Shown here: piece by piece, positions 6,046 through 12,290 of the stretch
How the letters are laid out: each line of letters starts with the position of its first letter
How positions within the stretch are numbered: the first letter of the stretch is position 1
Assembly (NCBI GenBank): GCA_038827615.1
Contig: JAWBNK010000001.1
Location: 744,290-808,289, forward strand
Direction of reading: 5' to 3'
DNA: 64,000 bases
Origin: Thermosphaera sp.
GTDB lineage: Archaea > Thermoproteota > Thermoprotei_A > Sulfolobales > Desulfurococcaceae
Notes under the pieces: generated by a model
The model's database searches: none
What the model saw: only the letters and a program-made list of their open reading frames with translations
What the model was told of the DNA's origin: nothing
Made by a program: the position numbers and the translations under genes

Positions 6046-7030
6046 GATACTGATTCCCTCGTTAATGTCAGGGTTATCTACATTCTTCCTTGTAAAATGG
6101 TGGATTCCGAAAGCTCTTCGACTAGGATTCAAAGGAAAAGACATGAACAAGTATGATCGTCCTGAAGTAAGTGAGGCCGGCGGAATATGGGTCGTATTAA
6201 GCACATCAATAGGAATACTTGGTTATATAATGATAGAAAGCGTGCTCGACAGAGATGCAGGAATTATTCAATATCTATCCATGACTCAGGTCCTTTTGCT
6301 ATCGGGAATGCTTGGATTCATCGATGACCTGCTCGGCTGGAAAAAAGGGATTTCCCCCTTAGCAAGAGTATTGTTCACGTTTCCAATAGCCCTCCCCTTA
6401 ATGGCTGTTAAAGCCGGTTTCTCAACCATCGAAATCCCGGTGATAGGTGTCGCAGACTTGGGCTTGATATATCCGCTCTTGATAGTCCCCCTGGGTATTG
6501 TTGGAGCCAGCAACGCATTCAATATGATTGCAGGCTATAATGGTTTGGAAACCCTCCAAGGCATCACACTCTTATCGTTCACATGCCTCTTCCTGCTGAA
6601 AAAAGGCTCATACCAGCTCATTCCAGTCGTGATACCCGTTCTGGCCTCACTCGCAGCATTCTACTATTTCAATAAGTATCCGGCTAAAGTGTTACCTGGG
6701 AATTCTTTGACTTACGGGATTGGCGCCTTCTACGCATCACTAGTCATTTATGGCAACTTCGAGAGATTCGGGTTATTCCTGTTCATTCCATACTTCGGAG
6801 AGTTATTGCTATTCCTACGGGGTTTGAAAAACAATGTGTACAAAGAGAATTTCGGAATCCCGGATGAACATAATCATCTCCAACCTCCATATCCGAAATC
6901 CTACAGCATAACACACCTGGCTATCAAGATCTTGATAAAAATTCGCGGACACGCGAGCGAAAAAGGAGTAGTGTATACTATATTATTGGTCCAAGTAATC
7001 GTGGGGACATTGGGATTATGCGTGTTCTAA
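6026..7030 (+). CDS. GlcNAc-1-phosphate transferase to dolichyl phosphate (MraY/WecA/ALG7 family)
   Basis: Polytopic membrane enzyme that starts the lipid-linked oligosaccharide for protein N-glycosylation by moving GlcNAc-1-phosphate (or a related sugar phosphate) to dolichyl phosphate. Seen: about ten hydrophobic segments in 334 residues, GFIDDLLGW with the paired Asp100/Asp101, SNAFNMIAGYNG, and the cytosolic PDEHNHLQPP loop, all family hallmarks. The ATG at 6026 follows GGAGGG and overlaps the XPF 3' end by 20 bases; a frame extension to 5966 was judged unlikely. Functionally it pairs with AglB at 37.8-40.3 kb. Confidence 0.85.
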   Translation: MITDYLEILIPSLMSGLSTFFLVKWWIPKALRLGFKGKDMNKYDRPEVSEAGGIWVVLSTSIGILGYIMIESVLDRDAGIIQYLSMTQVLLLSGMLGFIDDLLGWKKGISPLARVLFTFPIALPLMAVKAGFSTIEIPVIGVADLGLIYPLLIVPLGIVGASNAFNMIAGYNGLETLQGITLLSFTCLFLLKKGSYQLIPVVIPVLASLAAFYYFNKYPAKVLPGNSLTYGIGAFYASLVIYGNFERFGLFLFIPYFGELLLFLRGLKNNVYKENFGIPDEHNHLQPPYPKSYSITHLAIKILIKIRGHASEKGVVYTILLVQVIVGTLGLCVF

Positions 7031-7043
7031 AAAAAGATAAAAA

Positions 7044-10000
7044 TTATTTTCTCCTTACAAAACCGACATAACCTAGAATTCCTAGTATTAGTATAGACAG
7101 CCCTACTGAGGCTAAACCATAATTCGTAGTCATGCCCACGCTACCTTGAAGTTGCTCAACGTTATTTGCCACATTGTTGAGGGTGTTCTTGATATCAGAG
7201 ATGCCTGCACTTAGATCTTCAGTGGAAATCGGTAGCTTGTTATTCAAGATTTGTTTCAACGCATCGATCTCGATCAGTATGTTTCCACGAGTCGTATTAA
7301 CCAATCCATATATTCGCCCGCCCTCATCTCGAATCAAGGAGACTAGGGAAGCATTCATACTGGATAACATGGCCTGAAACTCGTTCACTGACACGTCTAT
7401 CTCACCAACCTTCGTTTTGATAAGGAGAACAGTTTGGTTTAGCAGGGAGATTTTGGCGTCTAAGAGACCTAAGTTCTCAATTAAAGTGTCAACCTTAGCG
7501 TTCACCAGGCCGAGGGAAGTATTGATCAACGCAGTATTGTCCCTAACACCAATGACCTCCATCTTGATTTCGTCAGCAACCTGTATGAGAGAAGCCAGTG
7601 AGACGTTTAGCAAGCCTATTTTAGTATCTATTAAGACGACGCTATCGTTCAACCCCACTATCTTAGCGTCAAGCGATGACAACATATTGAGAATTGTTTC
7701 TAATTTAGCGTTCACCAGGCCGAGGGAAGTATTGATCAACACAGTATTGTCCCTAACACCAATGATCTCGGCATTCAATGTCTCCAGCAAAGAGATCGCC
7801 TGTTGAGTATTAGCAAATATCATCTCTAACTTGCTCAGCGTGTTTACCGAACCAATCACTAGGGGTTCTCCGAGCAGATCTGTTATTGATATCTCGTGTA
7901 CTCCTTCATCAACGAGCGGAATGTTTAAGACAAGCGATCTGGCACCACTCATGTTAGCAGTGCTCACCGTTAGGAAGTTGGAATCAAGGTAAACATAGAA
8001 GGTTTGATGCGATGAAAGACCAGTTACTGTTAAGTGAACCCTTCCTGGGACAACAATGGCCTCGGGCTGTATCTCTAGCTTGGGAAGAACGGTGAAATCC
8101 ACGCTTCCATAATGTGTTTCATCTATATTGACTACCTCGAACAAGTGCATACCGCCTGGAATTAATGGAATTTCGCCAGAATATATTGCAGAACCATTTT
8201 CATCAGCCGTTGTCAAACCTATGATGTTTCCATCAATCATTATTAGTAAAGTATCATTAGGCAACGCCCCCGTGATGATTAGGGTGTATGAGTCGCCGAC
8301 GTGTAATAGTTTATTATCTATTGCTACATTCAAAGGTTTCATAATGATCCACCTAACCGAATTGTAAACTATGTTCCAGAAGTTAGGTGTGAAAGTATCT
8401 GGCGTGTTCCAACTCGTTATCGCGAAACTAGAGAGCAACACCCATTTAACTCCATTATCAAATTCTTTATAAGCGACTCCAGCGCCCCTCACTGAACCTC
8501 CTACGAGGATGGATCCTATGACGACTCCGCTAAAGTCAGAGAACCAAGAGAAGTCTGCACTACTATATGAATTAATCATTACCGTTGAGCCCGGCGGGTA
8601 TCCCCTGAATATTGGATGGGAGGCCTCTACAACCACATATACCTGTCCAGCTCCCCATGAAAAACCAACCGACGCTGGGTCCCCTAACTCTCGATTCAAC
8701 ACTTTAATTCCATATCCATACGAGCCGTAGCTATCCATCCAAACCACGCCTACCTTCCTGCTCATTGTCGCGTTGAGAAATGCTTGGAACTCGCTCGAGG
8801 TTGGAAATGGAACTCCATAGTCTCCGGAGTAAATTACAACGTCTATCAAGCCAGCCAACACATCCTCGGTTAATTGCGTTAGATTAGTATATGAGGCAGC
8901 ATACCATCCATTAGCTTCGAAGAAGTTCTTGAAAGATCCGGCATAATCCCACATTATCCCTATTCTCGGAAGTCTCTTAAGTACTATTTCTCCAAGGTTG
9001 ACAGTTGCGTTGACTAGGACTTCTACTTCGATATAGGCAGACCTGTATCCTGCTGCCTGGATGAGTAGAGTGTACGCCCCCTCAGGCAACCATGTAGAGA
9101 AGAACCCGTTCACGTCAGTCTTCACCTTCACTGGTGTTCCCAAAACTTGTATTATTGCATTAGAGAGAGGAATACCGTCAGAACCCAAGACGAATCCCTC
9201 TACGAAGCCGTGCGGCAACCTGTTTAGTGTCACATCGACTCGAGTGTAGATGTTTTTGACCACGCCACATTCGGCAACGAGACCTGGTTTTACTTCCCTG
9301 TTAGTTGCGAGCATTAAAGCCCGCGCAAGTTTTTCAAAGTCTCCTCTCACTCTGATAGATGTTGATGTAGCCTGGGACCAACCGAGCATTATGGCGTTCT
9401 CCAAGACTTTCTTCGTGTTACTACTATACATGCCATCCGCTCCCGGCTCCAGATACTGCATCCAATAGCTTTCAGCCCAACTACCCAAGTAGAACCATGA
9501 GACGTTGGAGTTGCTTACCCATTCAGCAACTCCTACACCAAAGTAGTGTGGATATTCTGTTCTCAAATCCCTCACGTAGCCTAGCAAGTTGAGCCTGCCC
9601 GTGGGATCTGTGAAATTGTAAACCACGTAATCTGCGTAACTACTTGTCAGCGTTGCAAGATAGAACTTATCCGGTGGAATGTCAGGCTCCACTCCATTAA
9701 ATATTGGATGAGTGGTGTTTAGCATTTCTACAACGACGTTCGAGGGGGTTGGGTAAGCAAATAGCCGTGATACTGGGGCCGGATAGCCGTTCGCCACCAG
9801 AGTGGAATTGTGAATCATCAGGACGTATATTCCAGGATATCCGGAGTAGCTAGTGCACAACCATATGAGGCTTGTGCCAGCGTAGTCTGCAAGCAAGTGG
9901 AAGGCGAGCAACGTGGTGTTCGTGGGATACGAGTATGGGGAGGGTTTAGTGTGATCAATAACTATCACTGCGGGATTTATAACTCCGTTAACCCAGTCCT

Positions 10001-12290
10001 GGACCAACACGTCCATGTCATTGTACTCGAGAACTGGCAAGCCTAGGTTTTCCACTATTAGCCTCAGGTGTGGAGAGGTGTCAAAGTCCACGTTAGCTAA
10101 GACGATCACGGATGGAGGAATACTTTCGAGATTAAAGTCCTGCCTCACCGCTACGAGAGGAGCAATGACTACCGTTACCTCCTTCTCAACGTATCCCGGT
10201 TTATACGCTCTAACCACGTACTGTCCTGAGGGAAGAGAGAGTTCGTAGTAACCACTGGAATCCGTTGTATTATAGACTAACGTATTGTTAACGAAAGTAT
10301 AAACTATTGCATCGGCAATCGGTTGAGACGTCGTAGCATCGTAAACATATCCCCATAGCGTTCCGTTGCCGAGGGGATATAGTGGGAAGTTTACAATTAC
10401 GATCTCTGCCTCGTCAACCGTCACACTCAACTGCAACGGTTGATAACCAACCGCTTCTGCTAGCAAGTCATACGTGCCGGGCGGGACTTTCACCGTGTAC
10501 AATCCGTCCTCATCTGTGAGCACTGTTAAATTCAACTCCATTACCGTGACTGTCGCATTAGCGATGGGATAGCCTGATAACGCATCTAATACTAGCCCAG
10601 TGATGGTTCCATTCAGTAAAACCACTTCGACCGTAGTGTTGAATGATTCATAACCCCATGCTTCAAACTGCAGTGTGTATGTCCCTGGGTCAAGAGGTAT
10701 CCTGTAGAATCCTGAGCCGTTGACGTAGAATGTTTGATTGGTTTCAAGGACCCTCACGAGCGCCCATGGAATCGGCTCCCCGCTCACGGAGTCCGTGACA
10801 AATCCCTCAACACCTGTTTTCTTAGCGTACTCTCTAGCTTTGCTCACTGCTTCGAGAGCATCTATTCTCCCCCATCCATACCTAGTGTCTAGTCCCGGAT
10901 CACCAAAATCCACTGCGGTTGAATTCAGGATTATGTAGACTTTCTCAGGTACGTCTGGAACATCGAAGTACATCCATCCAGCTGCTTGGAGAATAAGTGC
11001 TACAAGCCCGGAGACGTGTGGACACGCCATTGATGTTCCCGACCATGCTTCATATCCTCCTCCAGGTACTGAACTAACGATGGATACGCCTGGGGCGGAG
11101 AAATCTGGCTTGATGTAGGTTGAAGGATATGTGTCGAAGAATGGCCAGGATTCTGGTGGAGAGGGCCATGTAACTATTTTTCCACTACTCCAGGAGGCCA
11201 CGTTGTCATTAATGTCGGTGGCTCCTATCCCGAATACTCCCCAAATATTGCCCGGATTTCCGGATGTGCCTGGTCCACTATTTCCTATTGACGCTATGGG
11301 TATTATGTTCGCTAATAGCATGTTCTTAATGGCAGGGAGCAACTCGTTACCGTAGTATTCGTTGGCTCCGAAGCTCATGGATACGACGTGGGCTGGGAGT
11401 CCAGTGGGCACCGGTGTTCCCCCTACTAGGTAGAAGGGTTCAACGGTCCATTGCATTCCCGCCAAAACTTGTGCAAAAGTTCCGCCTCCCCCCGGGAGGA
11501 CCAATCCATGCATGAGGGTCGCTCCTGGGGCGACTCCAATTAATATGTTCTCAGTATTTCCTCCAAGCGCCGTTCCACTCGTGTGAGTGCCGTGCCCATC
11601 TGTGTCGTGAGGAACGCTTAAAACCGGATTACCGGCCGAGTCGAACTCCATCCAGCCTCCAGGATAGTAAGGACTTGAGGGATCAAGCGTGAGCATTTTT
11701 CCACTTAACGCCGGATGGGAAATGTCCACTCCTGTATCAAGCACAGCGATCCTTATTCCCTGGCCCGTGTATCCGAGAGCCCATGCTTCATTGGCTCTAA
11801 TCTTAAATATGCCCCAGCTTGACACCTGGCTCTCTATTACTTTCATCTTTTCAACCGGCTTAATGACTTCCACCTTAAAGTTTTCAAATATCTTTACCAC
11901 GTCTGGGTGAGTAGCTAAGAGCTTCACCATGGAGGCTGGGACTCTTGCTAGTACAACATTATCCAGCCAGAATCTATTCAACACGTAACCGCCCTTCGCA
12001 TTGATAAGCCTTACTATCGGTTCTTGAGTGATATACGCCCATGATTTTAGTGATGAGACAGCTAACTCGTATCGACCAGTTACACTAATCTTAGTTTCAT
12101 CCGGGAGAGGCTTGAGCCTTATAACTACTTCAACCAATTCCTCGGGAGGCATACTCTCAATGTTTTTCAACAGGTTCGGGTGGATTTTCTCAGTCGGCGA
12201 TGCGTTGACTGATGATGCTAGCACTGGATGGGCGAGATTGATTAGAAGGATCCCAATTATTAGAGATTCAAGTATGTATTTTTTTATCAA
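7044..12290 (-). CDS. Giant cell-surface S8 (subtilisin-like) protease with coiled-coil stalk and C-terminal anchor
   Basis: 1748-residue surface protease, similar in plan to pyrolysin and the tetrabrachion-bound STABLE protease of Staphylothermus. Signal peptide residues 1-26 (KK, then a hydrophobic core ending HPVLA), propeptide to about 160, S8 catalytic domain about 165-485 with Asp185 (LDTGVD), His233 (DGHGTH), oxyanion Asn337 and Ser420 (GTSMACPH). Then three carboxypeptidase-regulatory-like beta modules (about 496-725), a large alpha/beta domain (about 727-985), a fourth beta module (about 1035-1110), a second alpha/beta domain (about 1112-1300), Ig-like strands, a coiled-coil stalk with four 35-residue repeats (1511-1650), and a C-terminal TM helix ending GYVGFVRRK. 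Many NxS/T sites suggest N-glycosylation. It likely sits in the S-layer and degrades peptides for fermentation. Strong promoter upstream. Confidence 0.92.
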   Translation of the reverse strand: MIKKYILESLIIGILLINLAHPVLASSVNASPTEKIHPNLLKNIESMPPEELVEVVIRLKPLPDETKISVTGRYELAVSSLKSWAYITQEPIVRLINAKGGYVLNRFWLDNVVLARVPASMVKLLATHPDVVKIFENFKVEVIKPVEKMKVIESQVSSWGIFKIRANEAWALGYTGQGIRIAVLDTGVDISHPALSGKMLTLDPSSPYYPGGWMEFDSAGNPVLSVPHDTDGHGTHTSGTALGGNTENILIGVAPGATLMHGLVLPGGGGTFAQVLAGMQWTVEPFYLVGGTPVPTGLPAHVVSMSFGANEYYGNELLPAIKNMLLANIIPIASIGNSGPGTSGNPGNIWGVFGIGATDINDNVASWSSGKIVTWPSPPESWPFFDTYPSTYIKPDFSAPGVSIVSSVPGGGYEAWSGTSMACPHVSGLVALILQAAGWMYFDVPDVPEKVYIILNSTAVDFGDPGLDTRYGWGRIDALEAVSKAREYAKKTGVEGFVTDSVSGEPIPWALVRVLETNQTFYVNGSGFYRIPLDPGTYTLQFEAWGYESFNTTVEVVLLNGTITGLVLDALSGYPIANATVTVMELNLTVLTDEDGLYTVKVPPGTYDLLAEAVGYQPLQLSVTVDEAEIVIVNFPLYPLGNGTLWGYVYDATTSQPIADAIVYTFVNNTLVYNTTDSSGYYELSLPSGQYVVRAYKPGYVEKEVTVVIAPLVAVRQDFNLESIPPSVIVLANVDFDTSPHLRLIVENLGLPVLEYNDMDVLVQDWVNGVINPAVIVIDHTKPSPYSYPTNTTLLAFHLLADYAGTSLIWLCTSYSGYPGIYVLMIHNSTLVANGYPAPVSRLFAYPTPSNVVVEMLNTTHPIFNGVEPDIPPDKFYLATLTSSYADYVVYNFTDPTGRLNLLGYVRDLRTEYPHYFGVGVAEWVSNSNVSWFYLGSWAESYWMQYLEPGADGMYSSNTKKVLENAIMLGWSQATSTSIRVRGDFEKLARALMLATNREVKPGLVAECGVVKNIYTRVDVTLNRLPHGFVEGFVLGSDGIPLSNAIIQVLGTPVKVKTDVNGFFSTWLPEGAYTLLIQAAGYRSAYIEVEVLVNATVNLGEIVLKRLPRIGIMWDYAGSFKNFFEANGWYAASYTNLTQLTEDVLAGLIDVVIYSGDYGVPFPTSSEFQAFLNATMSRKVGVVWMDSYGSYGYGIKVLNRELGDPASVGFSWGAGQVYVVVEASHPIFRGYPPGSTVMINSYSSADFSWFSDFSGVVIGSILVGGSVRGAGVAYKEFDNGVKWVLLSSFAITSWNTPDTFTPNFWNIVYNSVRWIIMKPLNVAIDNKLLHVGDSYTLIITGALPNDTLLIMIDGNIIGLTTADENGSAIYSGEIPLIPGGMHLFEVVNIDETHYGSVDFTVLPKLEIQPEAIVVPGRVHLTVTGLSSHQTFYVYLDSNFLTVSTANMSGARSLVLNIPLVDEGVHEISITDLLGEPLVIGSVNTLSKLEMIFANTQQAISLLETLNAEIIGVRDNTVLINTSLGLVNAKLETILNMLSSLDAKIVGLNDSVVLIDTKIGLLNVSLASLIQVADEIKMEVIGVRDNTALINTSLGLVNAKVDTLIENLGLLDAKISLLNQTVLLIKTKVGEIDVSVNEFQAMLSSMNASLVSLIRDEGGRIYGLVNTTRGNILIEIDALKQILNNKLPISTEDLSAGISDIKNTLNNVANNVEQLQGSVGMTTNYGLASVGLSILILGILGYVGFVRRK
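7341..7760 (-). repeat. Four tandem 35-residue coiled-coil repeats within the protease stalk
   Basis: Codes for residues 1511-1650 of the S8 protease. The units start GVRDNTVLIN, GLNDSVVLID, GVRDNTALIN and LLNQTVLLIK and each is exactly 35 residues (105 bases), with a shared core of the form VLIxTxxGxxNxxL. Units 1 and 3 are nearly identical in DNA: bases 7495-7555 and 7705-7765 match over 61 bases with one difference, 210 bases apart, showing a recent two-unit duplication or gene conversion. Confidence 0.88.

Follow-up and report, generated by a model that had tools for sequence, protein, structure and literature searches.

Within the window, that is, the whole stretch of 64,000 nucleotides of Thermosphaera sp. 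DNA analyzed here, one open reading frame encodes a protease of 1748 residues whose membrane-proximal part carries four tandem units of 35 residues, two of which share almost the same DNA sequence over 61 nucleotides. This raises the questions of what kind of surface protein is encoded and of whether the shared DNA betrays an array whose number of units changes by recombination, as a preliminary description of the locus had proposed.

A subtilase with Ig-like domains, a stalk and a membrane anchor in one chain

The protein is an S8 subtilase, as judged by its domain and its Asp/His/Ser triad: PF00082 matches with E=1.8e-44 and is covered over the whole model, and the catalytic residues D185, H233 and S420 stand in the canonical motifs DTGVD, HGTH and GTSM (coordinates of this and the other features are collected in Table 1). 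Pfam further recognizes four CarboxypepD_reg stretches in the protease and no family above the cut-off in its C-terminal 400 residues; an NCBIfam scan of the protease gave nothing over any family cut-off, and a phmmer search of the PDB with the window C-terminus found no match up to E=1. Head and stalk are joined by two domains that AlphaFold2 models as Ig-like beta-sandwiches and for which Foldseek returns Ig/Fn3-like arrays as well as SlaB (8qox_B). The stalk contains seven N-glycosylation sequons. Within the head, positions 8300-10145 of the window (residues ~716-985 and ~1101-1330) encode two related domain copies without a Pfam match (24% identity, E=2e-6), and similar domains recur in a 2206-residue protein of genome G016 (L122).

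Table 1. Features of the protease gene, with positions in the window
Feature	Position	Strand	Basis or remark
S8 protease ORF, 1748 aa	7044..12290	(-)	TTG start, N-terminal hydrophobic segment, C-terminal transmembrane helix, RRK tail
Two Ig-like beta-sandwich domains, residues ~1330-1478, joining protease head to stalk	7857..8303	(-)	AlphaFold2 pLDDT ~90-95; Foldseek
Unit 1 (type A), residues 1505-1539, LNAEIIGVRDNTVLINTSLGLVNAKLETILNMLSS	7674..7778	(-)	
Unit 2 (type B), residues 1540-1574, LDAKIVGLNDSVVLIDTKIGLLNVSLASLIQVADE	7569..7673	(-)	
Unit 3 (type A), residues 1575-1609, IKMEVIGVRDNTALINTSLGLVNAKVDTLIENLGL	7464..7568	(-)	
Unit 4 (type B), residues 1610-1644, LDAKISLLNQTVLLIKTKVGEIDVSVNEFQAMLSS	7359..7463	(-)	
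61-nt probable conversion tract in unit 1	7705..7765	(-)	one mismatch to unit 3
61-nt probable conversion tract in unit 3	7495..7555	(-)	
Conserved hendecad-like segment, residues 1645-1681, MNASLVSLIRDEGGRIYGLVNTTRGNILIEIDALKQI	7248..7358	(-)	alignment A3; period 3.67 better than 3.5
LPISTEDL, residues ~1688-1695, the LP[IV]DTxTL motif common to it and the order's S-layer-type stalk proteins	7206..7229	(-)	
C-terminal transmembrane helix and positively charged tail, YGLASVGLSILILGILGYVGFVRRK	7047..7145	(-)	sequence

The array consists of four five-heptad units

The four tandem units of 35 residues follow one another without gaps, as had been described, and are best read in the register 7359-7778 on the minus strand (residues 1505-1644); the span noted earlier, 7341-7760, likewise covers exactly 140 residues (1511-1650), but in a poorer register. 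At the amino acid level units 1 and 3 are the closest pair with 22 of 35 residues identical, followed by 2/4 (15/35), 1/2 (13/35), 1/4 (11/35), 2/3 (10/35) and 3/4 (6/35), and the 35-residue blocks flanking the array on both sides match at background level, with 1-5 of 35. Tandem Repeats Finder missed the array because the units are too diverged at the DNA level. Assembly collapse or expansion is an unlikely source of the array: the longest exact runs common to two units measure 36 nt in the window gene and 45 nt in the orthologue of a same-genus relative (G001), and runs this short do not collapse when ordinary reads are assembled.

Both the heptad statistics and the spectrum show that the 35-residue unit of the array is genuinely made of five heptads. 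Core positions are hydrophobic in 37 of 40 cases compared with 24 of 100 elsewhere (Fisher p=3e-14, a somewhat optimistic value as the core positions were chosen by inspecting the same units), and the hydrophobic power over residues 1490-1682, which is free of that choice, amounts to 12.7 at a period of 3.5 and 0.64 at 11/3, with none of 2000 shuffles reaching 12.7 at period 3.5. The earlier remark that the 35-residue period equals five heptads, unlike the hendecad coil of tetrabrachion, holds for the array but not for residues 1645-1690 directly after it, where the hendecad gives the better fit (5.15 versus 2.53 for the heptad). Along the stalk as a whole, a search for hendecad periodicity of the tetrabrachion type found only these residues to favor 11/3. 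The hendecad-like segment is also the part of the stalk that is kept in distant relatives from other families, where its consensus reads hNxSLxxLIxxxxGxIxAxINTxxGxI.

Units 1 and 3 are homogenized within each species at constant unit number

Direct comparison bore out that a 61-nt stretch of unit 1 recurs in unit 3, at a distance of 210 bp and with a single mismatch. The shared stretch has one occurrence in the whole genome, and the sole direct repeat at the DNA level within 6800-8200 is a 74-nt pair around it (7486-7559 and 7696-7769, 92% identical, spacing 210). Where units 1 and 3 agree in amino acid, 19 of 22 positions use the same codon, where the gene's codon usage predicts 7.2 (P ~1e-7); for units 2 and 4 the same holds for 3 of 15.

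A search of 60 related genomes yielded one full-length orthologue from the same genus, that of G001 (67% identity), and more distant orthologues (38-62%) elsewhere in the order, from other genera and from other families. In G001 the protein likewise carries these four units at this position, and units 1 and 3 have been homogenized there too, over 45 identical nucleotides whose sequence differs from that in the window. When codons 13-26 of units 1 and 3 are compared, pairs from one species agree at 38 and 42 of 42 nt, and pairs across species at 29-30. Identical amino acids of units 1 and 3 share their codon in 16 of 19 cases in G001 (P ~1e-5), and over the whole gene 37.5% of the amino-acid-identical codons are the same between the window and G001. 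Position-wise orthology of units 1 and 3 is rejected by the AU test (p=0.004), the preferred tree grouping these units by species; in a tree of 14 units, by contrast, units 2 and 4 group by position across the two species, with bootstrap values of 81 and 95. As units 2 and 4 are orthologous between the species, the four-unit array predates the species split, and since these non-converted units keep their orthology, conversion can be separated from a change in copy number. Such a pattern, in which paralogous units of one species resemble each other more closely than orthologous units of the two species do, with four units in both, constitutes concerted evolution. The DNA that units 1 and 3 have in common is best accounted for by intragenic gene conversion that leaves the copy number constant, and not by copy-number change. 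With G001 also possessing four units, its units 1 and 3 homogenized separately and units 2 and 4 orthologous by position, the earlier reading of the 61-nt identity as itself a sign of changing repeat number is not supported in that form.

A recent tandem duplication of a 210-bp block, and hence a change in copy number, would account for the spacing of exactly 210 bp, and a six-unit 210-bp super-repeat indeed exists in Thermosphaera sp. Bin P8 (see below). Such a duplication would, however, have left units 2 and 4 as alike as units 1 and 3, but units 2 and 4 share 47 of 105 nt, and each has its orthologue at the same position in G001 (bootstrap 81-95). The tract moreover begins and finishes inside a unit, and both species have four units, so we consider this explanation improbable; a fresh 210-bp duplication as the origin of the 61-nt identity was rejected on account of the divergence and between-species orthology of units 2 and 4. 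Convergence or strong selection on the amino acid sequence could in principle keep units 1 and 3 alike without recombination, and INTSLG is present in every one of the four A units that the two species have together, with TCC CTC conserved even at the codon level. We give this reading next to no weight, as synonymous positions are identical within species and different between them (P ~1e-7 and ~1e-5), which contradicts an explanation by selection only. Intragenic conversion, the preferred reading, would make the locus a clean small case of this process in a hyperthermophilic archaeon, with tracts of ~45-60 nt; a literature search for gene conversion among surface proteins of archaea turned up no direct precedent, which does not prove that none exists.

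Unit number differs among relatives and the gene is lost in one of them

The proposal that the repeat number changes by recombination retains support of another kind, namely that the number differs among relatives, with four units in the window and in G001, six in Bin P8, and a remnant of the lost gene in G002. The count of six comes from one 3.5-kb MAG contig of Bin P8, on which a C-terminal fragment (L152) carries the six 35-residue units ahead of the conserved segment. They form a 70-residue A/B super-repeat, corresponding to a 210-bp super-period, with 66% identity at an offset of 210 and 55% at 105.

In G002, which was matched to T. aggregans, the syntenic locus contains an open remnant of 120 residues in which residues ~133-194 are joined to ~1688-1747, and the gene is therefore dispensable there. 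The remnant, at 1501-1863 of L019 (G002:C1:305025-308213), is internally deleted and flanked by genes for an MFS transporter and an MraY-like glycosyltransferase. No regular S-layer was seen in T. aggregans M11TL (PMC3035292); G002 retains a SlaB-like protein, and we claim no causal link between the missing S-layer and the loss of the protease.

Fixed non-repetitive sequence at this place in relatives had been named as an observation that would refute the earlier proposal. The stalks in other families are mostly non-repetitive, and the array is therefore a local expansion. In stalk arrays of this kind, successive [IVL]xTxxG motifs mostly lie 21, 28 or 35 residues apart. A Sulfolobales MAG protein (L158, G062:C21) contains a 105-residue (315-bp) stalk duplication with 249 of 315 nt identical, so that the length of its stalk changes by a different and larger unit than the 35-residue array.

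Structure models of the stalk

The two AlphaFold2 models of the stalk were calculated for monomers and are of low confidence, with stalk pLDDT values mostly of 20-65 over both, mostly of 20-60 in the model of residues 1330-1748, and a mean of 57.6 in that of a two-unit fragment. In both, a unit consists of a beta-hairpin or three-stranded part together with a short helix, and no continuous helix is formed. The array could accordingly be a beta-rich fiber, in which every unit forms a hairpin (EIIGVR-DN-TVLINT) or a three-stranded meander, closed by a TxxG turn cap and followed by a helix of 10-15 residues, such that layers of strands alternate with helical bundles. The topology is the same in successive units of both models, each unit has an invariant Gly and D/N/G (DG/ND) at the predicted turn, the positions flanking the turn have a high beta propensity, and in some relatives a Pro stands just ahead of the first strand; a constant core of ~21 residues extended by whole heptads would also explain the spacings of 21, 28 and 35. 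We nevertheless find the fiber doubtful, although it deserves more weight than any other alternative considered here: apart from the low confidence of the models, monomer models of obligate oligomers are unreliable, and the heptad pattern runs unbroken through the supposed strands. Alpha/beta coiled coils carry a beta-layer motif within their heptads, for example [aliphatic]-A-T-K-[polar]-[DE] (PMC4786415), and by inspection this consensus is not visible in the units, other layer sequences being possible. Rather unlikely, in our view, is the more far-reaching idea that this self-contained protease stands on a modular alpha/beta fiber with a strand layer and a helix per 35 residues, the height of which would be set in 70-residue steps by recombination in the 210-bp register, so that the enzyme is kept at a defined height with respect to the S-layer.

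The stalk shares a module with S-layer-type proteins

The likeness to stalk segments of archaeal S-layer proteins that had been noted from the repeat core extends to motif, order of elements and profile match, and the stalk represents a module common to archaeal S-layer-type stalk proteins. As in the Desulfurococcales stalk module, the hendecad-like segment of the window protein is followed by an LPxDTxTL-type motif. Near ORF ends, 12 of 13 matches to this motif lie in stalks of such proteins after the hendecad-like segment, the 13th being an unrelated ORF in L149, and elsewhere there is 1 match in ~775,000 residues, a background that omits the last 300 residues of each ORF. The carriers are the proteins of the window, G001 and Bin P8 and those of L031, L111, L112, L113, L115, L116, L121 and L158. 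In other Desulfurococcaceae, S-layer-type stalk proteins of ~870 residues (L111, L112, L113, L121) adjoin genes for STABLE-type proteases; like the window protein they combine IxTxxG units, the hendecad-like segment, the LPxDTxTL-type motif and a membrane helix, but they have no protease head, and their units differ in number and length.

A profile of the protease C-termini (A3) matches the S-layer-type stalk proteins with an hhalign probability of 97.7%. Its best match in the PDB is SlaB (8qox_B, E=1.2e-7), with unrelated helical proteins following from 5.8e-6 (ApoA-IV), an E-value about fifty-fold worse. SlaB of S. acidocaldarius is a membrane-anchored trimer (PMC10903991). Its beta-sandwich/Ig domains, C-terminal coil and C-terminal membrane helix (PDB 8qox) have their counterparts in the window protein, where the Ig-like domains modeled by AlphaFold2 are followed by the heptad stalk and then by the transmembrane tail; SlaB differs in having no enzyme head, and its C-terminal helix of 132 residues is described as a single long one, with no 35-residue array reported (PMC10903991). 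We regard the sequence homology of the stalk to SlaB as suggestive, and the likeness of the predicted architectures as the firmer point. The window genome also encodes a SlaB-like protein of its own, with 1046 residues (L149:3554-6691, G000:C2), Ig-like domains recognized by inspection, a coil and a membrane helix, which is conserved in G001 and G002.

Relation to STABLE and tetrabrachion

STABLE of Staphylothermus marinus, from the same archaeal family, is a subtilase bound to the coiled-coil stalk of the S-layer (PMC5744192), and like the window protein it is a subtilisin-family protease placed on an S-layer-type stalk at the surface of a hyperthermophile. These parallels would allow the window protein to be the organism's STABLE protease, docking on a tetrabrachion-type stalk by means of its own coiled coil. 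A separate S8 gene of 1392 residues in the window genome, however, aligns with the S. marinus STABLE candidate over ~1100 residues (E=2e-80), and the window protein resembles this candidate chiefly over the catalytic core (E=6e-14). The candidate is a 1349-residue ORF that we take to be STABLE from its length, STABLE having 1345 residues, and its genome (G023) was identified as that of S. marinus by the tetrabrachion coiled-coil sequence, which was confirmed against PDB 1ybk and 1fe6. The candidate ends without a stalk or membrane helix, and the tetrabrachion coiled-coil sequence has no match in the window genome. We therefore rate this explanation as very unlikely; orthology of the window protein to STABLE is rejected because the alignment lies mainly in the core and does not extend over the whole length of 1345-1349 residues, and homology to tetrabrachion because of the missing match in the genome.

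The right-handed coiled coil of tetrabrachion (PDB 1fe6, 1ybk) is likewise the long stalk of a surface protein in the same archaeal family, but it is a hendecad coil, whereas the window array is based on heptads with no 11/3 signal and only a short hendecad-like stretch after it. STABLE resides on a separate stalk protein (PMC5744192), whereas the window protease carries stalk and anchor in its own chain.

Proposed working of the protein

Taken together, we favor, with a probability of roughly 70%, a membrane-anchored cell-surface subtilase fused to its own SlaB-like stalk of coiled-coil type, in which units 1 and 3 undergo conversion at constant number while pairs of units are gained or lost over longer times. 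The chain would be arranged as a head (the S8 domain, carboxypeptidase-regulatory-like domains and two related domains of unknown function), two Ig-like domains, the coiled-coil-type stalk and the C-terminal membrane helix. The upper stalk would be made up mostly of the four five-heptad units, with the short conserved hendecad-like segment below. In the membrane orientation that we infer, three or four chains may associate through their stalks and keep the protease raised above the membrane, where it could sit among or above the S-layer and cut peptides or surface proteins. Tandem duplication probably gave rise to the units before the window species separated from its same-genus relative; the type-A units 1 and 3 would since have been homogenized in each lineage by conversion tracts of ~45-60 nt that leave the unit number unchanged, and in the longer term recombination in the 210-bp register may add or remove pairs of units.

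According to a review, STABLE is the only known enzymatic component of an S-layer (PMC5744192). The window protease would represent a second subtilase lineage, with stalk and anchor in the same chain, whereas STABLE relies on another protein for its stalk. A C11 (clostripain) protease from a different genus of the family (G005, L120:1453-3636) combines its head with IxTxxG units (spacing 28) and a C-terminal membrane helix in one chain as the window protein does, although the two belong to unrelated protease families. That a subtilase and a C11 enzyme should both be borne on this type of stalk suggests a module that can be reused to display enzymes. Among the bacterial S8 homologues whose ends were seen, the stalk is absent. 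An S8 protease from Bathyarchaeota (L050) ends in IxTxxG units spaced 28, 35 and 21 residues by hand count, followed by a membrane helix.
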